64,000 bases of DNA from Candidatus Scalindua sp. SCAELEC01. GTDB lineage: Bacteria > Planctomycetota > Brocadiia > Brocadiales > Scalinduaceae. The DNA is taken from contig SHMT01000008.1 in the NCBI GenBank assembly GCA_004282745.1, forward strand, positions 51,909-115,908, written 5' to 3'. Below the pieces are notes generated by a model. The model did no database searches, had not been told where the DNA came from, and saw only the letters and a list, made by a program, of their open reading frames with translations. The translations under genes and the position numbers were made by a program. This document shows positions 7,996 through 19,935 of the stretch, piece by piece. How positions within the stretch are numbered: position 1 is the stretch's first letter; each line of letters opens with the position of its first letter.

Positions 7996-9576
7996 TCAAT
8001 GCTCTGGCTCATCAAAGCAAGGATGATCACCGTGTCTACACTCACTCTTTGGAAGAACATCGCCCTCTTTTCTCTTCCAACCGGTCAATAAGTCAGTATA
8101 CTCACCATGTTTCCAGAAATCATAAGCCTTATGCTCTATACCAACCTCTTTTTCAAGAGTTGATATCCTTCTCAGCTTAGAAGCTTCAGATTTTATCTCA
8201 ATGAGTTTCCTATCCATTGGGAAAGCACCAGCGTTATAAGATACATCATCAATAGCGAAATGGAATGCAGCCTTATAAACAGCCGTTACCTGGTAAACAA
8301 TCATCTCAATTGCCATTCTTTCAATATCTGACACATTATAGAACCTAGGCGAACCACCTGGCAACAAGCAAAGTGTATGTCCACCGGTCCAGTCAGGTGC
8401 CAAATCAGCTGGCATCGGATCAAGCAAACCTTCAAGGTACAGACCTACGATGATATTTACCGCTTCACGCCACTTAGTAAAGCTGATATGGATCTGTTCG
8501 TCTGCAGCACTTAATTGCTCAGCGGCAAAACGTGGAGAGTGACAACCTTGACATCTCTTAATCCATGCATCTCTCTTAGCTTTATACCGAGGAGCACCTT
8601 TATCTACCTGGAACATACCCATGTGATTGTAAACTGTAGAAACAGCCTGAGTATTGTGATTCCCCTCTTCTCCCATGTGACAATAAGCACAGGTAGGAAC
8701 ACGGTAATTTTTAGGAGTCATCTTCTGATCCCAATCCCATGTATCACCTTCCATCATCAGAATCTTACCATGATATGAGTTGTAATAGAACTCGTATTCA
8801 GCATGGTCAACACCCATATGACAAACACCACAAGTTTCTGGCTTTCTTGCTTCTGACTGTTTGAACTGATGTCTTGTGTGACAACCATCACACCTGTTTG
8901 ATACGATACCATGACACTGCGCACAACTTGCAACCTCTTCACCGGGTTTTCCAATCTGCCAAGCAAACTCGTTAACCTCAATATGCCATGCATGAGCATG
9001 TGAACCCAAACCACCAGTTATGTGGTCAGCTCTCTGCTGCTTATGACATTGTCCACAGACACCGTGGTCAGGCATTACTAATTCTTGATGGTTATTACCA
9101 TGACAAGCATCACAACCAACAACCTGCTCTTCACTCATATCAGATGTTTTTCCACCTTTTGAGTGTTTACTCGCTTTCCAGTCGACTACTATCCTTGGTG
9201 TTTGAATTGAGTGGCACAAAATACACTCTTCAGGTTTAAATTCACCCTCAACCTTTTGGGTTGATACATAGTAATGAGCAGGATCATAATACATTGCTGT
9301 GACTGGCAAAAAATAGAAAATATTTTTAAATTTACCCTCACCAGGCATTACTTCATCTGGTCCTGTATATTTTGCTGTAAGACCAAAAACATATACTTCT
9401 CCACTGTCATCTGGCCCTACTGCCTGGCCGAATATTGATGACGCTACATCCTGAAATGTTGGTGCAGCTTCATCAGCATTTGCATTAGTATTAAAACCTG
9501 TCATGATAACCGTACAGGCAGCAACTAAAGCAAAAATGACCGCACAAATTGCGTACCTCCGTGCAAATTGAATCAT
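7996..9576 (-). CDS. Octahaem HAO-like cytochrome c
   Basis: Full-length HAO-family protein, 526 aa with an N-terminal signal peptide. Eight CXXCH motifs occur in order: CILCH, CDACH, CGQCH, CAQCH, CDGCH, CGVCH, CAYCH and CQGCH. The fourth matches the P460-type catalytic haem. The protein is closely related to the partial paralogue at 1-933, including the shared SGEVY.GLTAKYTGP stretch. In HAO and hydrazine dehydrogenase a C-terminal Tyr crosslinks the catalytic haem of a neighbour. A Tyr is present in the DDVSYNAGAF stretch, but alignment is needed to say whether it is the equivalent residue. The gene has its own consensus promoter and terminator just downstream of hzsA, which suggests strong independent expression. 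Oxidation of hydroxylamine or hydrazine and reduction of nitrite or NO are both possible. Confidence 0.92.
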   Translation of the reverse strand: MIQFARRYAICAVIFALVAACTVIMTGFNTNANADEAAPTFQDVASSIFGQAVGPDDSGEVYVFGLTAKYTGPDEVMPGEGKFKNIFYFLPVTAMYYDPAHYYVSTQKVEGEFKPEECILCHSIQTPRIVVDWKASKHSKGGKTSDMSEEQVVGCDACHGNNHQELVMPDHGVCGQCHKQQRADHITGGLGSHAHAWHIEVNEFAWQIGKPGEEVASCAQCHGIVSNRCDGCHTRHQFKQSEARKPETCGVCHMGVDHAEYEFYYNSYHGKILMMEGDTWDWDQKMTPKNYRVPTCAYCHMGEEGNHNTQAVSTVYNHMGMFQVDKGAPRYKAKRDAWIKRCQGCHSPRFAAEQLSAADEQIHISFTKWREAVNIIVGLYLEGLLDPMPADLAPDWTGGHTLCLLPGGSPRFYNVSDIERMAIEMIVYQVTAVYKAAFHFAIDDVSYNAGAFPMDRKLIEIKSEASKLRRISTLEKEVGIEHKAYDFWKHGEYTDLLTGWKRKEGDVLPKSECRHGDHPCFDEPEH

Positions 9577-9917: not shown

Positions 9918-12338
9918 TTATCTTCTGGAAGAATATCCAGGATATGGATCAGGCCCTTGAATATTATCCCATTGAGCTCCTAAGTCTACCCATTCAACAA
10001 ACAAGTATCTTTCTTCAGGAGTTAGGAGTTTATTATGCATTACCCTACCTTCTAATGGGAAAGTATTACTTGTTGTTTCAAACTGTGATAACTGCTCTTC
10101 ATAGAGTCTCCAGATGAGAGGACTATTGATAGCGGCACTTGGATTAACATACCTTCCACCAATGTTCTTATCCTTACCAACATGAGGAGCGAGTAGACTG
10201 TTATAAGACCTGCTGAAGGCAGCAATGCCATCAACAGATACCAACTTTGTACTATTAGCAAAATTTGGTGACTGTCCATCGCTGTGGCAGCCAGCACATT
10301 TCGCATCAATCAATGGTTGAATGTCTCTTCTGAAATCGACAGTCCTCAGCTTATCGATATTCAAACCTTCAACCGGTTGTGAAGTCGTACCTGAAGCACC
10401 ACCGTAGTAAACGTCAGATGGAACAACAACGTCTTCACCATGCTTAACACCTGCGTACTTACCATTCTTGTCCAACCTTAAATTAGCCCACATAAATGGT
10501 GAATCATAATGGCTTAAATCACTATACCACCAGTTATAAAGAGCCTTAGAATGGATATTTTTGTAACCTTTCTTGTCATATGAACCCCAATGACAACCAG
10601 TACAAATCCTTCCGCCATAGGGCCTTACGTATGCCCAAGCAAGTTGTGTCTGCACTGCCATACCTTTATCATCAAGAATTTGAGCACAATACGGCTCGTC
10701 ACCAGGATGAGAACTCACAACAGATGCATCATCTTCAACGTATTGATAACCAAACATACGTCTCTGAGTAAACGCGGTACCAGAGTTACTACTTGATCTC
10801 TCACCACCGAGCAAGTGCCTACCTGCACCAACGATAAACCGAGAATCATCTGGTTCCTTCGTTGTAATTGCATTCAGGGTCCTCATAGCCTTAATATCAC
10901 CGTGCTTCATCTCCTTGGCCCTCTGATGCGGATATGGACCTATTGGAAGATTGGTCAAGGTAGTGTCAAAACAGATCGTAGTACTCCAAGAGTGAGGATA
11001 TCCTTCAACATTAACCTGATCGAAAGGCTGATAGGTCACCGTAGTCACACCAAACTCTTTACCAGCGGTAAATGAGTTAATCCATCTCGGCTTATATCGA
11101 GGATAAACCGGTTGCGGCTGATGATCATTCCATTCAGGATCATCATAAACCTTCTCAGATACGGTACCTTTTGAATGATCAAACCAAAACAGTCCAAAAT
11201 CCTGTCTTTCAGAAGAAGAGACCATCAACCTACCATCCGGCAGAGGAAATGGGCTTCTGTAAAGCCTACCGTCTCTATTGATCCTGGATTGGGTCTTAGC
11301 ATGAGGAGTTGTCCAACTCACCTTTGCAAGATTTCCAACACCCGAATCATAATCCAAAGCTTCGATGTAATAAATATTGCCATCTACCGCTTCTCTTGCT
11401 TGAACCTTGGCTGTGTCAGCCTGCTCATTAGCCTCATTACCGTAAATGTGTCTTGGATAAGAACCGTCCCAGTTATCAACTACAAGACAGATACTTCCCT
11501 TACCACCATTACGCGGACCATTTGCCTGAGTACTACTAAACATTATATTTCCGTCACGAGTTAATGCCGGATCGAAATCTGAACTAACATTATAGTTAAT
11601 CCTATCAACAACAGAATTTGTGCTCGGCATATCAATACCCATAAGTTTGTGACCACAAATCCTGTCCATCATCTTACCACCCTGTGGGTCAAGCCTGTAG
11701 AGGCTATATGAGTAGTTGTTATAATACTCATCCATTGCATCTGCTGGTGAGTAAGCAATGATCAAGAAGCCAGTCTTCTCAACCTCACCCCGAATTTTCC
11801 AGTCACCCTCAAAGTACCTGTCACGCGAAATAACATTACCCTTACCTTCCTCAATTGCACCAGCAGGATAATAGATAGGGGTCCTTGCGCTTCCAGGCAA
11901 ATCGGTCAACTGCCTCACTCCGGATCCATCAATATTCATCTCCCAAATCTGACACCCACCGCCGTTTTTATGAACACCGGCAAATGCGACCTTGGAACAA
12001 TCCCAATTCAGGCAAGGATCGAATGCACTCTTGAAATCCTTCGTTAAAACCTGCAAACTTCTTGACTTCATGTTATATGAAACGATCCTACTAGCATTTG
12101 GAATGTAGTTAGGATACTGATGATACGGATCACCAGCGCTTGTTGGCTTGGACTGAGTAAAGACAACAGATTCTACGGTACCCTGAATCTGTTTTGACAT
12201 ACCCCAATAGTCACCCCATATAGCCGCACCCGGCTTGTGACCACCTACCATTACCTGGGCCTGGCACGTTGAACCAAATAGTCCACCTACTGCCACTGCG
12301 CCAACTAAGGCCATTGTCGCAAAAAATCCCTTTTTCAT
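9918..12338 (-). CDS. hzsA: Hydrazine synthase alpha subunit
   Basis: Catalytic subunit of hydrazine synthase (NO + NH4+ + 3 e- to N2H4), 806 aa, close to the ~809 aa of the Kuenenia protein. A signal peptide precedes a TolB-like propeller region. Two c-haem motifs are seen: CTGCH (His 583) and CAGCH (His 685). The first is followed by WGSY, which puts a Tyr exactly four residues after the CXXCH His. This is the hallmark of haem alpha-I, where in the crystal structure this Tyr ligates the iron and the CXXCH His binds zinc. The ATG at 12338 is chosen because AGGAG lies 11 nt upstream; an upstream in-frame ATG would destroy the signal peptide. It is the last gene of the hzsB-hzsC-hzsA order. 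Confidence 0.97.
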   Translation of the reverse strand: MKKGFFATMALVGAVAVGGLFGSTCQAQVMVGGHKPGAAIWGDYWGMSKQIQGTVESVVFTQSKPTSAGDPYHQYPNYIPNASRIVSYNMKSRSLQVLTKDFKSAFDPCLNWDCSKVAFAGVHKNGGGCQIWEMNIDGSGVRQLTDLPGSARTPIYYPAGAIEEGKGNVISRDRYFEGDWKIRGEVEKTGFLIIAYSPADAMDEYYNNYSYSLYRLDPQGGKMMDRICGHKLMGIDMPSTNSVVDRINYNVSSDFDPALTRDGNIMFSSTQANGPRNGGKGSICLVVDNWDGSYPRHIYGNEANEQADTAKVQAREAVDGNIYYIEALDYDSGVGNLAKVSWTTPHAKTQSRINRDGRLYRSPFPLPDGRLMVSSSERQDFGLFWFDHSKGTVSEKVYDDPEWNDHQPQPVYPRYKPRWINSFTAGKEFGVTTVTYQPFDQVNVEGYPHSWSTTICFDTTLTNLPIGPYPHQRAKEMKHGDIKAMRTLNAITTKEPDDSRFIVGAGRHLLGGERSSSNSGTAFTQRRMFGYQYVEDDASVVSSHPGDEPYCAQILDDKGMAVQTQLAWAYVRPYGGRICTGCHWGSYDKKGYKNIHSKALYNWWYSDLSHYDSPFMWANLRLDKNGKYAGVKHGEDVVVPSDVYYGGASGTTSQPVEGLNIDKLRTVDFRRDIQPLIDAKCAGCHSDGQSPNFANSTKLVSVDGIAAFSRSYNSLLAPHVGKDKNIGGRYVNPSAAINSPLIWRLYEEQLSQFETTSNTFPLEGRVMHNKLLTPEERYLFVEWVDLGAQWDNIQGPDPYPGYSSRR

Positions 12339-12452: not shown

Positions 12453-13478
12453 TTAAAGAGCCTTCATAAACTCAACAAGGTCCTGCAATTGCTGATTATT
12501 CAGATGTGATGTAACGCCATGCATATCTTTTGTAGTGCATGTGTTATCAATCGTATTCATCAGAGTTTCAGCACTACCATCATGAAAATAGGTCCCAGAC
12601 GCATAGATATCCCTCAATGTTGGGGTATCAAACTCCTTCACCAAATCCAATCCGATAATTGGAACATCATACTCCTCACCATAAGGATCAACACCAGCCT
12701 CCAACGCAGTTGTGTTAAATACAGCGCCCGGTGTGGTCCTGAATCCATCTTTTCCAACCCTTCCGGTTCCAACATCATGTGTCTGAGCATCACTAAACAA
12801 CGCTCTTGGGTTGTTAGGATCTCCCGGATGACACTCTATGCAACCCACTTTTGGATCACTGAATACCTTCCACCCTCTTTTTTGAGCAGCGGTCAGAGAA
12901 CCATCTTCATTTCTGAAAGGACTACCCGTGAACTCTAATGACCTGATGTAAGCAATCAATGCCTCTAACCTCTCAGGTGAGAAGTTTTCACTTCTAAACA
13001 CAAATCCAGGGTCTCGACCACAAACCCTGTCGATTGATGACGTAGCACCTACGATCTCATCAGGATGACCCGTAAATCCTTCATGTCTGAAAGGGGGAAG
13101 ATACCTGCCACCACGAATATACTTGGTATTCTTCCAGCTACCCCAACCTTCATCACCAAGGTCCCAGATCAAACCGGTAGTCTGACCTCTCTCATAGTGA
13201 CAACTCGCACATGAATACTCACCCTGAAGTGTCCATGAATTTTCGTTGAACTGAAACTGTCCATACCTTACCAATTCGCTCTTGTAAGGTGAATGCTTTA
13301 CCCTGTAATGTACCTCAGGAACAGTCAATGGCTCACCTCTCTCGAGTGGTTCCCATTCTGGCCCTGTCTGTATGGTAGCTATAACCTGAGCCTCACCTGC
13401 ATCAGCAAACTTCACAGTCGCAGTCAGGCTAAAAAGACACAGGGTAGCAATTAAGCTCATGACAAACATCTTCTTCAT
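12453..13478 (-). CDS. hzsC: Hydrazine synthase gamma subunit (dihaem peroxidase-like)
   Basis: Dihaem subunit of hydrazine synthase related to cytochrome c peroxidase and MauG, 341 aa with a signal peptide. Haem motifs are CASCH (followed by YERGQ) and CIECH (followed by PGDP), with the long linker typical of the family. In the known complex this subunit is proposed to make hydroxylamine from NO, which then meets ammonium in the alpha subunit. The ATG at 13478 has a near-perfect AGGAGG 7 nt upstream and gives the signal peptide. A longer frame from further upstream is not supported. It follows hzsB by 64 nt as a separate gene, unlike the hzsBC fusion reported for Scalindua. Confidence 0.96.
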   Translation of the reverse strand: MKKMFVMSLIATLCLFSLTATVKFADAGEAQVIATIQTGPEWEPLERGEPLTVPEVHYRVKHSPYKSELVRYGQFQFNENSWTLQGEYSCASCHYERGQTTGLIWDLGDEGWGSWKNTKYIRGGRYLPPFRHEGFTGHPDEIVGATSSIDRVCGRDPGFVFRSENFSPERLEALIAYIRSLEFTGSPFRNEDGSLTAAQKRGWKVFSDPKVGCIECHPGDPNNPRALFSDAQTHDVGTGRVGKDGFRTTPGAVFNTTALEAGVDPYGEEYDVPIIGLDLVKEFDTPTLRDIYASGTYFHDGSAETLMNTIDNTCTTKDMHGVTSHLNNQQLQDLVEFMKAL

Positions 13479-13542
13479 TACCAACCTCCTAAAAAAAAAC
13501 ACAGTTAAAATAATTCCCACTAACTACATTAGAATTCACTAA

Positions 13543-14679
13543 CTATTCAAGTGGAGTTCTAATTACAGACACATTATTTGAAAAATAGTTTGCAGCATAA
13601 CATATCTTTCCATCAGGAGATAGAGCTACCGAACTTGGCCCAAGACCTACATTCACCCTCGTCACCAAATAGTCTACCATAATAGTTAGATCATCTTTCA
13701 TCGCATCCAACTCACACTGTGAGCTTGACTGAATGATATCTGTCATCTTAGCCAAATCAAGAATGGTAACCCTATGCATACCCCTTACACCGATGTATAC
13801 ATACTTACCCTCTGGGCAGATTGCGATACCATATGGATTACCGTCGTAATTGTTGAGCTCGTCCAATGGAAATTGTGCAACCTTTCCGCCTTTCTTAGTT
13901 TCAACCATTGCAACGTTGTTCGAGAAAATCTGAGCGTTTTCCGCTTCACACACGGGTAGCCAGTTCTTTGGCTGCTCCATGGTAAAGAGAACGTATTGAC
14001 CATCAGGAGTATACTCAACACCTCTAAAATTAGCGCTACCAGGAATTACCCTTGTTTCAGTAACCCTACCGGTTGCAAGGTCGATAAAATCGACACATCT
14101 ATTGATTTTACCCGTAGTATCAAGTACTACTGCTGCAGTCTTACCGTCAGGAGATATTGCAATATCCCTCGGACCATAATCTGATGTCCTAATCTCTCCG
14201 ATTTTATTGTTCATCGCAGTATCGATGATATCAACAGAGTTCCACATACTTCCTGAACAGCAGACATATGCCTTCATACCATCGTTAGAAAGCTTAATGC
14301 TGCATGGCCAATCACCAACCTTTATGGTCTTAATCACAGCCTTGTTGCCAACATCAACTACAGAAACCGTATCGCTTTCAGCATTACAAACGTACAAAGT
14401 TCTCCCATCCTGCGTACAAACCGTAGCTTCAGGCTGCACCTGAACAGGAACTTCGCCAGTTACTTTTCTGGTTCGTGTATCAACAAACGTCACACTATGA
14501 CCTGACTGATTGGCAAGAAACAGCGTACCACCATCAGGAGAAACCGACACGTGAAACGGAGAAGGATGCTCGGTCCTTACCCTTGTACCCTGAATAAAAC
14601 CGGCACTAGCACTCTGTGATATCAATAGAGATACCAAACCGGCCCCAAGGATACTCAAAAATAAACTCCTTTTTTTCAT
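13543..14679 (-). CDS. hzsB: Hydrazine synthase beta subunit (seven-bladed propeller)
   Basis: Non-haem beta-propeller subunit, 378 aa, with a cleavable signal peptide ending near SQSASA. It has repeated YVTN-type blades: SPDGGTLFLANQ, TQDGRTLYVCNA, SNDGMKAYVCC, SPDGKTAAVVL, PDGQYVLF, CPEGKYVYIGV and SPDGKICYAAN. There is no CXXCH. AGGAGGTGA directly precedes the ATG. In the crystal structure this subunit is a scaffold joining the alpha and gamma subunits. It is the second gene after the sigma-54-type promoter, behind the Cys-rich gene. Confidence 0.96.
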   Translation of the reverse strand: MKKRSLFLSILGAGLVSLLISQSASAGFIQGTRVRTEHPSPFHVSVSPDGGTLFLANQSGHSVTFVDTRTRKVTGEVPVQVQPEATVCTQDGRTLYVCNAESDTVSVVDVGNKAVIKTIKVGDWPCSIKLSNDGMKAYVCCSGSMWNSVDIIDTAMNNKIGEIRTSDYGPRDIAISPDGKTAAVVLDTTGKINRCVDFIDLATGRVTETRVIPGSANFRGVEYTPDGQYVLFTMEQPKNWLPVCEAENAQIFSNNVAMVETKKGGKVAQFPLDELNNYDGNPYGIAICPEGKYVYIGVRGMHRVTILDLAKMTDIIQSSSQCELDAMKDDLTIMVDYLVTRVNVGLGPSSVALSPDGKICYAANYFSNNVSVIRTPLE

Positions 14680-14716: not shown

Positions 14717-15310
14717 TTAGAAACTTGGAACATGGGGACACTCACCAGACTTTTCACAAACAGTCTCTAGTGGCTTACCACACTCCTCACAACTACCAGG
14801 ATCTTTTAACGTTGGGATATACTCAACTTTTTCATCAAGTTTATGCCCTCTACCTGGATGCTCAAAAGTCTTTCCACAACCCGTACACTTAAAATCAATC
14901 TTCGACCAGACTTTTTTACTGTCTATATCACCCATACACACATCACAACCACCTGGATAGGGCATACATCTTTCATAAGCCTCACACTCTTTCTCAATAC
15001 AGCTAAACTTTATCCTTTCACAGCCCCAAGCCTCAGGCAAATCCTGATGCTTCTTTGCCTCATCATACTCCTCAGAACCTGATTCATATTTCTTAAAGTC
15101 CCAGATGTAATTAATGTTTTTACAATCCTTAAATTCATTAATCTCTTTACATATCGGACAAAAGTAATGCAATTGAATCTTTTTTTGTGGGCATTTTGCC
15201 CCTTCAGCGGCGTACACAGAGCCCATCTGACCAACAGCCAAATTCAACAAAAACAAAAAAGCAAATATCGCAACAAGAATGCGTCCCAACCCTCTTTTTA
15301 CTGTAACCAC
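14717..15310 (-). CDS. Cys-rich exported protein at the head of the hzs operon
   Basis: 197 aa, function not recognised. A signal peptide of ~30 residues is followed by a domain with about 16 Cys in metal-knuckle patterns (CPIC, CDVC, CTGC, CEEC, CEKSGEC) and no haem CXXCH. Zinc-ribbon or rubredoxin-like metal sites are therefore likely. The GTG at 15310 is chosen because GGGGGGTGA lies just upstream, as for hzsB. A longer reading from 15403 would run through the predicted promoter. It starts 38 nt before hzsB's upstream boundary and is the first gene of the unit. An assembly, zinc-delivery or redox-maturation role for hydrazine synthase is an inference from position only. Confidence 0.8.
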   Translation of the reverse strand: MVTVKRGLGRILVAIFAFLFLLNLAVGQMGSVYAAEGAKCPQKKIQLHYFCPICKEINEFKDCKNINYIWDFKKYESGSEEYDEAKKHQDLPEAWGCERIKFSCIEKECEAYERCMPYPGGCDVCMGDIDSKKVWSKIDFKCTGCGKTFEHPGRGHKLDEKVEYIPTLKDPGSCEECGKPLETVCEKSGECPHVPSF

Positions 15311-15384: not shown

Positions 15385-15400
15385 CGCATATAGCATGCCA
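15385..15400 (-). promoter_or_regulatory. Sigma-54-type promoter for the Cys-rich-hzsBCA unit
   Basis: The minus strand reads TGGCATG-CTAT-ATGC, matching the sigma-54 consensus TGGCACG-N4-TTGC at 9 of 11 positions with invariant GG and GC at the right spacing. The start would be near 15374, about 64 nt before the GTG at 15310. A 13-bp dyad TTTGTC-C-GACAAA lies at 15411-15423 and another, TGTTGTCAACA, at 15562-15572; the latter is at a distance suited to an enhancer-binding protein. The gene just upstream encodes such an activator. Confidence 0.75.
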
Positions 15401-15582: not shown

Positions 15583-16974
15583 TTAATTGCTGCAGTACTT
15601 TTCCAATCGATACCTCAAAGTACCACGTGTTAGCCCCAACATTTTAGCAGCTTTTGTCTTATTGTTATCACTTTTTTTCAGTGCTTGCAATACTATCTGC
15701 TTCTCAACTTCCTCCAGGCAAATACCCTCTGGAGGTATTTCAAAATTTATGATACCCTCCTTTTTACCTTTATCTCCAAATTTCCCATTTGAAGAACCTT
15801 GCTTCACGAGGTTTAAAGGCAGATGTTCTTCAGATATCATATTGCCCTTACATAAGATGACGGCCCTCTCAATACAGTTTTTTAACTCACGTATGTTCCC
15901 TTCCCACACATTTGAGATAAGCAATTTCTCTGCATTTTTAGAGATTTTCATCGGACATTTACCCATTTTTGCCGAATAGCGATCAATGAAGGTATTCACT
16001 AGAGACAAAATGTCCTCAGATCTTTCACGAAGAGGTGGTATCTGGATGGGAAACACGTTGATTCGGTAAAAGAGATCTTCCCTGAAATCATTTTTTTTTA
16101 CGAGAAGCGCAAGATCCCTGTTACTGGCACAGATAATCCTCACGTCTACCTTTATCGTTTCAGAACCTCCAAGCCTTTCCAGCTCTCTCTCCTCAACCAC
16201 TCTTAAAACTTTTGCCTGGATAACTGGATTCATCTCCGAAATTTCATCAAGAAAAAGAGTCCCGCCATTTGCCAGCTCAAATCGTCCTTTTTTACTCTTT
16301 TCAGCACCAGTAAAAGCCCCTTTTTCATAACCAAACAGCTCGCTCTCTAACAAGTTTTCGGGCAATGCCGCACAATTTATGGTAATTAATGGACCACTTT
16401 TACGGAGACTATTGAAATGTATCGCCCTGGCAACCAGCTCCTTCCCCGTTCCACTTTCACCAAAAATTGAAACAGTTGAGTCGGTCCTTGAAACATCACC
16501 TGCCAATAGGAGGACCTCTAGCATCTTAGGAGAATTACTAATGATACTCCCAAAATTGTAATGTGACTCTAACTCATGACGGAGGTATCTATTTTCAATA
16601 ATTAGAGACCTGATCTTAATCGCTTTTTTAATTGCAACAGCGAGAGAATTACCTTCAAATGGCCTGGAGATATAATCAAAAGCACCCTCTTTCATTGCTT
16701 CAACTGCTATTTCCACAGAATCATCACCTGTAATGATAATAACAGGCAGCTCTGGATCTTTTGATTTAATACGTTTTAAAAATTCTAGTCGGCCCATCCT
16801 AGAATCCCGAAGATCTGTTATAACCAGATGTACACGCTCACAATCAATCAAATCTAAAACTGATGACTTACTGCCCACTTTAACAAGCTCAGTACCAGCC
16901 ACATCACCAAGAACAACGCCAATATTCCTGATCATTCGTTCTTCATCATCAGCTACTAAAATCCTACTTATCAT
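15583..16974 (-). CDS. Sigma-54-dependent response regulator (NtrC family)
   Basis: 463 aa with an N-terminal receiver domain (1-~120), an AAA+ domain and a C-terminal Fis-type helix-turn-helix. Walker A GESGTGKE (172-179), GAFTGA (219-224, sigma-54 contact) and Walker B GGTLFLDE (237-244) are intact. In the receiver, Asp54 is the likely phosphate acceptor. The conserved Lys before Pro is Arg (ISRPFE), and the usual MP after the Asp is replaced by DS. The helix-turn-helix reads NKTKAAKMLGLTRGTLRYRL. It lies 42 nt downstream of the cytochrome b gene of the electron-transfer module and 183 nt upstream of the predicted sigma-54 promoter, so it probably activates the hydrazine synthase unit. No sensor kinase is nearby. 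Confidence 0.93.
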   Translation of the reverse strand: MISRILVADDEERMIRNIGVVLGDVAGTELVKVGSKSSVLDLIDCERVHLVITDLRDSRMGRLEFLKRIKSKDPELPVIIITGDDSVEIAVEAMKEGAFDYISRPFEGNSLAVAIKKAIKIRSLIIENRYLRHELESHYNFGSIISNSPKMLEVLLLAGDVSRTDSTVSIFGESGTGKELVARAIHFNSLRKSGPLITINCAALPENLLESELFGYEKGAFTGAEKSKKGRFELANGGTLFLDEISEMNPVIQAKVLRVVEERELERLGGSETIKVDVRIICASNRDLALLVKKNDFREDLFYRINVFPIQIPPLRERSEDILSLVNTFIDRYSAKMGKCPMKISKNAEKLLISNVWEGNIRELKNCIERAVILCKGNMISEEHLPLNLVKQGSSNGKFGDKGKKEGIINFEIPPEGICLEEVEKQIVLQALKKSDNNKTKAAKMLGLTRGTLRYRLEKYCSN

Positions 16975-17026
16975 CTTGCTACCACGCTCCCAAAAGTACA
17001 AACAGAAACGTTTATTTTAAATAACA

Positions 17027-17884
17027 CTAACAAATTAACGTAAAAAGAGAGCAAATTAAAGATGCGAGCATAAACCCAACTATGAGCAATCCAACAACAA
17101 GGAATGGTAATCCCATTATCTTAGAAACCAGACTACCCGCACATCCAGAAGGCCTAACTTTCAGCGCTTCCAGCTCTCCACTTTCCTTTAACCTTTCATA
17201 ATAAACCCCTCTCTCGTGCGCCATATGCTCTTCAGAAATTCTTCCCGTAAACATCGCTTCATCAACCGGCATATTTTCAGGAAGCAAATGAGTATGAAAA
17301 AAATGAATGGTGAAGATAAATCCGGCGGCCAAAAGAGCCTCATATCTGTGCCCTACCAAGGCCAAACTCGGCAGATCTATATAATTCGCAAGATTTGCCG
17401 GAACAAAGCTGGTTGCCTGAACAGGAAACCAGAGAACAAACCCGGTAGTAGCCATAACGAAAGTACCCCACATAAGAGAGAGATACTCCATCTTTTCCCA
17501 GTAAATCCACCTATCGTAATTCGGACGGCTGCCCAAACGAAAAAACCACAAAACATCGCCTAAAATATTAAGCAGATCCTTAGGTTGTATCAAAAGTGAA
17601 TCTGGACCCCAAAAAATACCCCTGTCCTTCTTGATCAATGTCTGCACTGACAAATATGCAAAATGCAAAAAGGCGGCAAAAAACGTAATCAAAGCGCATA
17701 TTCTATGAATAATACCCGCCGTTGGATAACCACCCATCACACCATACAACCAATGCGCCCATCCATAATCTTTAAAAACGAGAGGCATCCCCGTTAACAC
17801 CAGCCCAAAAAAACTGATAATAACAAGAAAATGACTAAACCGATGAAACAAGCTAAACCTTAGAAAATGACTATCACTTGCCAT
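17027..17884 (-). CDS. Membrane cytochrome b of the electron-transfer module
   Basis: 285 aa, four predicted membrane helices with a pattern like formate dehydrogenase gamma subunit or Ni-hydrogenase cytochrome b. Candidate haem b ligands are His residues in FHRFSHF, IIHRICA, FLHFAY, VGHRYEA and TIHFFHTH. A C-terminal hydrophobic segment follows. The ATG overlaps the stop of the upstream heptahaem cytochrome gene by 11 nt (translational coupling). It probably takes electrons from quinol and passes them to the c-type partners that feed hydrazine synthase. In Kuenenia a comparable module lies next to the synthase genes. Confidence 0.88.
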   Translation of the reverse strand: MASDSHFLRFSLFHRFSHFLVIISFFGLVLTGMPLVFKDYGWAHWLYGVMGGYPTAGIIHRICALITFFAAFLHFAYLSVQTLIKKDRGIFWGPDSLLIQPKDLLNILGDVLWFFRLGSRPNYDRWIYWEKMEYLSLMWGTFVMATTGFVLWFPVQATSFVPANLANYIDLPSLALVGHRYEALLAAGFIFTIHFFHTHLLPENMPVDEAMFTGRISEEHMAHERGVYYERLKESGELEALKVRPSGCAGSLVSKIMGLPFLVVGLLIVGFMLASLICSLFTLIC

Positions 17885-18869
17885 GTTTTGATTCCTTTCC
17901 CTTACGCTCATCCAATATAGTAGCTAACCATGTAAAAACTGAATGCATACCAAACTGTGAAAATGTCATGACTAAAATACCCACATACATTACAAACAAA
18001 ACCGTAATAAGCGTCTGCGGGCTCTTTACAATACCTATGATCTTTTCACGATCACTACGAGCATCTTTAACAGCACCAAATATCTCCTTGTAATAGCTTA
18101 TATTTTTATATTTTGGATGAGCAACATGCTTCACAAAAGTATCATTTGCACCAGGATGACAAACGCTGCAGGTCTCTATAACATTTTCAGATCCCAAAGT
18201 CGACTCAGGATCAGTTGAATTCAAAATTGTATGCTGGCCATGACAATCGACACAGGTGGCAATATCAGTGCCAACGTAGCCTAAGGCCGTAACTTGACCA
18301 TGTAAATTGTTGCGGTATGAATCAAAATATTCCTTATGACAGCCACCACACTTATCAATCGTGTCCTCCCTATGAGACAGATCGTTTGCACGCGGTGTAT
18401 CACGTTTTGATTTATATCCGGAATGACAGTATTTACAGGTCGGGGGCTGAACATCATTTTCCTTCATTAGTGCCACATGGCTACTTTCAAGAAATTCCTC
18501 AGCCGGATCATCATGACAAAACGTGATACAATCAACTGGCTGCAAATTTGGATAATGCTCGCCCTCTGACTCCTCAAGATCCGCATGACAATCGATACAA
18601 TAAAAATCTTCACCGCCATGGGCAGAAGCGTGAAAGGCCTCTTCGTCAACCAGCATTGACACGATCTCAACCTCACCCGTTACGTGATCAACCCTCACTT
18701 TCACATCCACTTTAGAAGGATCCGTATGACAATCCATGCACTCACTATTTTCCTGAGCATAAAGGCGGTATGAAGAAACAGCGGAAAAGAGAGCAACAAA
18801 GAGTCCCACAATGAGTACCCTTGCTACCTGATTATTGACAACTCCACAAGTGTTGAGAATGGATGCCAC
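17874..18869 (-). CDS. Membrane-anchored multihaem cytochrome c of the electron-transfer module
   Basis: 331 aa, starting at a GTG with AGGAGG 10 nt upstream. An N-terminal signal segment is followed by six canonical c-haem motifs (CMDCH, CIDCH, CKYCH, CGGCH, CVDCH, CSVCH) and one CX3CH (CITFCH), giving six or seven haems. A C-terminal membrane helix (VLFVMYVGILVMTF region) anchors it. The gene overlaps the downstream cytochrome b gene, which suggests a b/c membrane complex. By position it would relay electrons from the b-type subunit to the soluble trihaem protein or to hydrazine synthase. No enzymatic motif was recognised. Confidence 0.88.
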   Translation of the reverse strand: MASILNTCGVVNNQVARVLIVGLFVALFSAVSSYRLYAQENSECMDCHTDPSKVDVKVRVDHVTGEVEIVSMLVDEEAFHASAHGGEDFYCIDCHADLEESEGEHYPNLQPVDCITFCHDDPAEEFLESSHVALMKENDVQPPTCKYCHSGYKSKRDTPRANDLSHREDTIDKCGGCHKEYFDSYRNNLHGQVTALGYVGTDIATCVDCHGQHTILNSTDPESTLGSENVIETCSVCHPGANDTFVKHVAHPKYKNISYYKEIFGAVKDARSDREKIIGIVKSPQTLITVLFVMYVGILVMTFSQFGMHSVFTWLATILDERKGKESKHGK

Positions 18870-19179: not shown

Positions 19180-19935
19180 TCAATGCTTCGCATTGCTTGG
19201 CTTAGTTTTAAACAGAGGATCCTTCTCGATATACCCCGCCCACTTCTTCTTATCCACTGTCGGCAATACATCGTCTATCGGATCATGGTCTCTATGATCG
19301 TCTAACTTGAAATACTTCTTAAAATCCATGACCTTAGGCTTTCCTGTCTTCTCGTCATTACCCACCTTTGGACACTTGTTTTTATCTTTTTCATCTTCCC
19401 AGTGACACTCCAAACACTGCTCTTTAATAGTGTCGTACTTATTGATACCAGCCACAATCAAGCCTGCATCAAACTGCACTTTCCTCGCCATCATAGGATC
19501 TTCTTTCAAGAGCTTCTTAAATGCATCCTTCCCCTTTTTATTGTAATTCTTTTTTACATTAACATATGCTTCCCCTGGACCATGACACGCTTCACAGGTA
19601 ACGTTCTCCAGGAAGTTACCATGTTTGGATTTCCCTTTTTTAATCTTCATATCAAACGCCGTGGCATGACACCTCAAACACTCCGGATTTGTCTTCTCTT
19701 CATCAGTCAACAACCTCTTATTAAATGTTTTTGAATGCAACCTCGCCTTATACTCTTCACCTTCAAAGCACCCCTTAGAAAGATGACACTTACAGCCTGA
19801 ATTACTCATATATTTGTATTTCTGCTTCTCAGCCCCAAAACTTTGAGACCCCTGAAAAACAGAGACCGACGATACAGCCACTACAGCAAAAACAATCATA
19901 AACACCCTCAAGCTTCGACTTAACATGATCCTCAT
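19180..19935 (-). CDS. Soluble trihaem cytochrome c (c554-like)
   Basis: 251 aa with an N-terminal signal peptide. Three canonical haem motifs (CLRCH, CEACH, CLECH) are present, plus an N-terminal GCKCH that has a single residue between the cysteines and may or may not carry a haem. Many Lys residues make it basic. The layout resembles cytochrome c554 family proteins. Position next to the membrane heptahaem and cytochrome b genes matches the trihaem component proposed as an electron donor to hydrazine synthase. It has its own sigma-70 promoter and terminator. Confidence 0.87.
   Translation of the reverse strand: MRIMLSRSLRVFMIVFAVVAVSSVSVFQGSQSFGAEKQKYKYMSNSGCKCHLSKGCFEGEEYKARLHSKTFNKRLLTDEEKTNPECLRCHATAFDMKIKKGKSKHGNFLENVTCEACHGPGEAYVNVKKNYNKKGKDAFKKLLKEDPMMARKVQFDAGLIVAGINKYDTIKEQCLECHWEDEKDKNKCPKVGNDEKTGKPKVMDFKKYFKLDDHRDHDPIDDVLPTVDKKKWAGYIEKDPLFKTKPSNAKH

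Follow-up and report, generated by a model that had tools for sequence, protein, structure and literature searches.

Genes and promoter elements at the locus

The window, that is the whole stretch of 64,000 nucleotides that was analysed, carries the genes of hydrazine synthase (HZS) on its minus strand, together with a gene for a small Cys-rich protein that is separated from hzsB by 37 nt (Table 1). On the other side of this gene lie a sigma54-dependent regulator and the cytochrome genes of an electron-transfer module.

Table 1. Positions of the genes and the sigma54-type element around the hzs operon in the window
Feature	Position	Strand	Remarks
Octahaem HAO-like gene	7996..9576	(-)	downstream of hzsA
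hzsA, hydrazine synthase alpha	9918..12338	(-)	above the NCBIfam cut-off; position 303 is Glu; H587, S590 and Y591 kept
hzsC, hydrazine synthase gamma, unfused	12453..13481	(-)	NF052341, 732 bits against a cut-off of 625
hzsB, hydrazine synthase beta	13543..14679	(-)	NF052340, 692 bits against a cut-off of 560
Exported Cys-rich protein, kuste2858 orthologue	14717..15310	(-)	197 aa, GTG start, 16 Cys
Sigma54-type -24/-12 element, TGGCATGCTATATGCG	15385..15400	(-)	90 nt before the start codon of the Cys-rich gene
NtrC-type sigma54-dependent response regulator, kuste2857 orthologue	15583..17001	(-)	
Membrane cytochrome b, kuste2856 orthologue	17027..17911	(-)	electron-transfer module
Multihaem cytochrome c, kuste2855 orthologue	17874..18869	(-)	electron-transfer module
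Trihaem cytochrome c, kuste2854 orthologue	19180..19935	(-)	

The coordinates given for the Cys-rich gene in the original prediction are correct and the strand is minus: the GTG codon stands at 15310 and the stop at 14717, and the plus-strand frame is interrupted by stops. A ribosome-binding-like stretch, GGGGGGTGA, precedes the start. Read by eye, the N-terminus consists of a KR n-region, the core ILVAIFAFLFLLNLAVG and a VYA/A cleavage region, which together form a signal peptide. The translation holds exactly 16 Cys and four CXXC motifs, and a test for a c-type cytochrome returned no CXXCH motif, so that the signal peptide, the roughly 16 Cys, the CXXC knuckles and the missing haem motif were all found as predicted. 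Judged from this signal peptide, the protein is probably exported, and its destination would be the anammoxosome lumen or the periplasm. The mature part contains zinc-ribbon-like CxxC..CxxC modules and ends in SGECPH, a tail that reads SGTCPH in most anammox members.

The same slot is occupied in Kuenenia stuttgartiensis by kuste2858 (KsCSTR_28180), within the order kuste2854 (trihaem), 2855 (multihaem), 2856 (cytochrome b), 2857 (sigma54 regulator), 2858 and hzsBCA. A homologue of the kuste2858 type was recovered in a genome whose HZS-alpha matches the Kuenenia numbering exactly; kuste2858 and the window protein are approximately 45% identical overall and differ in the tail (SGTCPH versus SGECPH). 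Published work lists kuste2858 as an “unknown protein” of the HZS cluster, kuste2854-2861 (PMC6423088; PMC12053348), and none of the papers covered by the literature search is devoted to it.

The sigma54-type element lies between the Cys-rich gene and the regulator gene upstream. Where the regulator gene is present, the element is found 64-110 nt before the start in 38 of 40 loci, and it is absent from all nine loci without that gene (Fisher p=3e-8, shared ancestry uncorrected); neither of the two family-level groups without the regulator has the element. The NtrC-type regulator is likely to be the activator of the hzs operon. As the element stands between the module and regulator on one side and the Cys-rich gene on the other, the latter would be transcribed with hzs, and this supports the earlier claim that it is the first gene of the transcription unit. 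Further downstream, a perfect sigma70-type consensus (TTGACA, 16 nt, TATAAT) is found at window positions 9820-9793 of the minus strand, just upstream of the HAO-like gene, which suggests that this gene has a promoter of its own.

Distribution in anammox bacteria and other Planctomycetota

The Cys-rich gene was detected in 49 of 62 Brocadiales genomes and HZS-alpha in 40. As hzs is often duplicated, this mismatch is mostly a matter of assembly breaks. In the loci read, which cover five family-level groups, the next gene upstream of an hzsB linked to the electron-transfer module is always the Cys-rich gene where the contig reaches that far, and the predicted adjacency to hzs across anammox bacteria is borne out to this extent. 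Two of the groups, f2 and f3, are missing the regulator but still have the Cys-rich gene, flanked by cytochrome b and hzsB. As neighbours, the electron-transfer genes are conserved to the same degree.

Five genomes have HZS-alpha and no match to the Cys-rich protein, and in four of them (G057, G006, G038 and G054) the contig ends inside hzs. In the fifth, G037, the 4 kb upstream of an hzsC-hzsA copy (L115, 10873-14863) contain neither hzsB nor the Cys-rich gene, and the latter was not found anywhere in the assembly of 400 contigs; this hzsC-hzsA copy may be a secondary one. Brocadiaceae with two hzs operons hold a single Cys-rich gene, and their secondary operons (n=6, L118-L123) are without both the Cys-rich gene and the electron-transfer genes. 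These secondary operons carry a sigma54-like element in six of six cases, with a different sigma54 regulator (approximately 43% identity) upstream in five. An apparent partial second copy of the gene in G027 is in fact one copy cut by a contig end. In G045, the reading frames of hzsB, hzsC and the first part of hzsA are disrupted many times on one contig (C26; L064, 9100-11700) beside an intact Cys-rich gene, through either genuine decay or an error of assembly. Elsewhere in the same genome (C22; L193), hzsB and hzsC form an intact pair accompanied by a different sigma54 regulator.

The tree indicates that two tandem copies of the Cys-rich gene, A and B, are ancestral in Scalinduaceae, and the gene in the window corresponds to copy B. 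Genomes with a fused hzsBC gene (G046, G048, G050, G052 and G055) have copy A only, while copy B is found in all those with separate beta and gamma genes (the window, G045, G049, G058, G059 and G060). A single branch carries both the loss of copy B and the fusion, which thus count as one event; this is a hint, and not proof, that copy B is concerned with beta-gamma pairing.

Beyond the order, the two other genomes of the same class gave no match to the anammox profile. Searched with the anammox-only profile, 392 planctomycetal genomes outside Brocadiales yielded one convincing homologue (G105, E 3e-7) and two partial ones. A mixed profile recovered about two dozen relatives in Planctomycetota, exported, Cys-rich and of the same layout. 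Alignment with hhalign of anammox and non-anammox profiles without shared rows gave E 3e-20 and a probability of 99.3%, and a profile without anammox rows returned the window gene as the top match of its genome (E 2e-7). The pattern of the non-anammox members is CDL-x-W/Y-CxxC ... CVK-x-x-Y-x-C ... GxCxxC ... AxVxYxCxxCG ... CxxSGxFPH. They have the full-length layout, the signal peptide and the SGxxPH tail in common with the anammox branch, but lack its YIWD insertion and its tail Cys; that position is F, Y, A, W or P in 23 of 23 complete relatives and Cys in every anammox protein. In the tree, the anammox proteins fall on one side of a branch with a support of 99 and a long stem. The neighbours of the relatives are unrelated to the hzs context. 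HZS-like clades have been described (PMC12758564); HZS-like subunits are encoded at none of the loci where homologues occur outside Brocadiales.

On these sequence comparisons, the Cys-rich gene represents a branch, specific to anammox bacteria, of an undescribed family of predicted exported proteins that is general in Planctomycetota. The occurrence of distant homologues in planctomycetes without hzs implies that the ancestral function was not HZS assembly. The original prediction had the gene absent outside anammox bacteria and held that orthologues elsewhere in unrelated contexts would speak against it. Its absence stands for orthologues and fails for homologues; what was found in unrelated contexts in other Planctomycetota are distant homologues and not orthologues, so the objection applies in part. 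Several paralogues per genome occur among the relatives (L139-L141, L163-L181), including four in G215 and three in tandem in G140, and one relative (L163) appears by eye to be fused to an SGNH-type hydrolase domain. Outside Planctomycetota, coverage consisted of one contig scan with the window protein, sensitive to close relatives only; a match in Odoribacter (L004) was dropped as it spans only 43 residues. Weak hydrazine_alpha matches in other planctomycetes were likewise set aside, being mostly short cytochrome or propeller matches.

Probable metal ligands and fold

The Cys are kept across 53 anammox homologues, barring lineage-specific ligand swaps, and 12 of the 23 invariant columns in a 32-row anammox alignment are Cys. 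Ratios of dN/dS between 0.03 and 0.19 in five pairs indicate purifying selection; dS is saturated between the window gene and its nearest relative, and that pair has no value. Together, the conserved Cys and these ratios place the gene far from a chance reading frame. In the swaps, the second Cys of a CXXC motif becomes His in group f3 (CPDGH) and Asp in f2, f5 and one Scalindua (CPDDG); in a third pair it becomes Asp or Gly in f3, and EDDG is among the swapped forms. A metal site survives such changes, whereas a redox pair would not, and the Cys are therefore read as metal ligands. The arrangement in ligand pairs, with C->D and C->H substitutions of the ligand type, is that of a zinc ribbon, and the metal would most likely be zinc.

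The AlphaFold2 model of the window protein (pLDDT 84, pTM 0.72) is beta-rich with the last ten residues unordered, and the model of a Kuenenia-type member gives the same picture. Foldseek searches of the PDB with both models found no match below E 0.5, and the overlaps with DUF35 ribbons are local and non-significant. The helix and sheet model contains no recognised client-binding fold. A PDB sequence search with the anammox profile returned chance zinc fingers only, and Pfam and NCBIfam assigned the window protein to no family, with CxxC_Se_CxxC as the best NCBIfam match (E 0.0065, below the cut-off). Rfam and plasmid searches gave no match.

Two known families show some likeness. Zn_ribbon_6 (PF07191), a zinc ribbon or double zinc ribbon, has [F/Y]xCxxC...GxCxxCGxxL pairs in common with anammox and distant members; weak matches are seen in 4 of the 32 anammox members, the best at E 1e-5, and in 7 of the 19 distant ones. 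The window protein gives no match, however, and differs by its extra Cys and its tail from a family that is cytoplasmic in name. The Y-x-C..PG-x-C-x-x-C-G spacing of the heavy-metal-binding domain HMBD (PF19335; LpCopA, 8ovl) is seen in distant members, with E of approximately 2e-4 in 2 of 19 and E 0.003 for 8ovl. At the Pfam cut-off the window protein and the anammox members are unmatched, and the HMBD is one short module, unlike the anammox protein.

Possible roles in the assembly of hydrazine synthase

A label-free proteome of Kuenenia gave values for kuste2858 of 144,710, 178,908 and not detected, compared with 16-37 million for the HZS subunits; this corresponds to 0.5-0.9% of the subunits with no detection in one reactor (PMC6423088), and peptide detectability blurs such figures, but hardly by a factor of 100. 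On hydrazine exposure, the kuste2858 transcript falls together with hzs (PMC12053348). At less than 1% of HZS, the protein is too scarce for a subunit or for an electron carrier in stoichiometric amounts, and the published abundance fits the predicted helper rather than a subunit. A small fourth subunit would be exported and encoded in the same operon, as is the case here. This reading is very improbable, and published data have largely refuted it: the proteome signal is below 1% of that of HZS subunits (PMC6423088), and kuste2858 is absent from the crystallised enzyme, a dimer of alpha-beta-gamma heterotrimers (PMC12607021).

The haem alpha-I of hydrazine synthase is unusual in that the His of its CXXCH motif sits on zinc and a Tyr on iron. 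Delivery of zinc to the site beside this haem was among the roles originally proposed, and a metallochaperone of this kind would be Cys-rich, exported and encoded next to hzs; the CPH tail could pass on a metal, and distant members weakly resemble the HMBD. The zinc site itself varies. Position 303, the zinc ligand in Kuenenia together with H587, is held by Cys in 17 of 33 HZS-alpha sequences, by Glu in 12 and by Tyr in 4; H587, S590 and Y591 are invariant in all of these sequences. Glu is found in the window and in all Scalinduaceae, a family in which the C303 ligand has been described as absent (PMC12758564). The Cys-rich protein is conserved throughout these lineages. The variation at position 303 weakens the case for zinc delivery, and most of the Cys stand in ribbon-type pairs that would hold structural zinc; we regard this role as decidedly unlikely. 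A thiol-redox factor, acting as a disulfide isomerase or as a reductant of CXXCH before haem attachment, would agree with the four CXXC motifs, the export and the tetrahaem enzyme subunits nearby. The second Cys is, however, variable in three of the pairs (CPDDG, CPDGH, EDDG in some lineages) and no thioredoxin-type fold, Pfam or other family match was found. The proposed disulfide role is thus disfavoured and highly unlikely.

The strongest rival, although still an unlikely one, is that the protein serves as an accessory or assembly factor of the upstream electron-transfer module (trihaem, multihaem and cytochrome b, feeding electrons to HZS) and not of HZS. The module genes are always its upstream neighbours, and the second hzs copies are without both. 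In abundance, kuste2858 lies within the same order of magnitude as kuste2854 and kuste2856 and roughly 100-fold below HZS, the electron-transfer gene products reaching 217,000-411,000 in the same proteome (PMC6423088). Against this stands the sigma54 element, which separates the module and regulator from the Cys-rich gene and would place its transcription with hzs. It also counts against this rival that no quinol-cytochrome module is known to need such a protein.

The reading that we favour, although tentatively, is that of a sub-stoichiometric zinc-ribbon helper in the assembly or maturation of HZS. No better candidate for a helper dedicated to building HZS has so far emerged than the Cys-rich protein, which probably binds zinc. 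The small exported protein would fold around its zinc-ribbon-like Cys sites and act in sub-stoichiometric amounts. As the first product of a sigma54-driven operon, it would be present when the HZS subunits emerge. The CPH tail may be the working site that touches the client, either an apo-subunit or a haem or metal site; the SGTCPH tail is a candidate for this as it is invariant, flexible and has a Cys found only in anammox members. A single copy in genomes with two hzs operons is as expected of a trans-acting helper. The helper reading has to contend with the second hzs copies, which work without an adjacent Cys-rich gene, and with the hzsC-hzsA copy of G037, whose assembly has no match. A more specific proposal, in which the protein is a maturase that helps to install haem alpha-I, with the tail as its active part, and in which a general exported zinc protein of Planctomycetota was recruited to this task, seems rather unlikely.

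That the gene is listed as unknown in the HZS cluster was already known. New are the family to which it belongs, the logic of its ligands, the tail Cys that only anammox members have, and the sigma54 element, together with the evidence that speaks against zinc delivery and against a subunit role. Much of the nitrogen lost globally is lost through anammox, whose defining enzyme is hydrazine synthase, which makes rocket fuel inside the cell. The HZS preparations in the literature covered were all purified from anammox biomass. The Cys-rich gene offers a near-universal, single, small and expressible candidate at the first position of the hzs transcription unit, and a single residue, the tail Cys of SGTCPH, separates the anammox members from all relatives seen. 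The sigma54 element, as the target for the regulator, would provide a concrete handle on the regulation of the hzs operon. If the proposal of a haem alpha-I maturase is true, the protein would be the first maturation factor dedicated to an enzyme that forms hydrazine.
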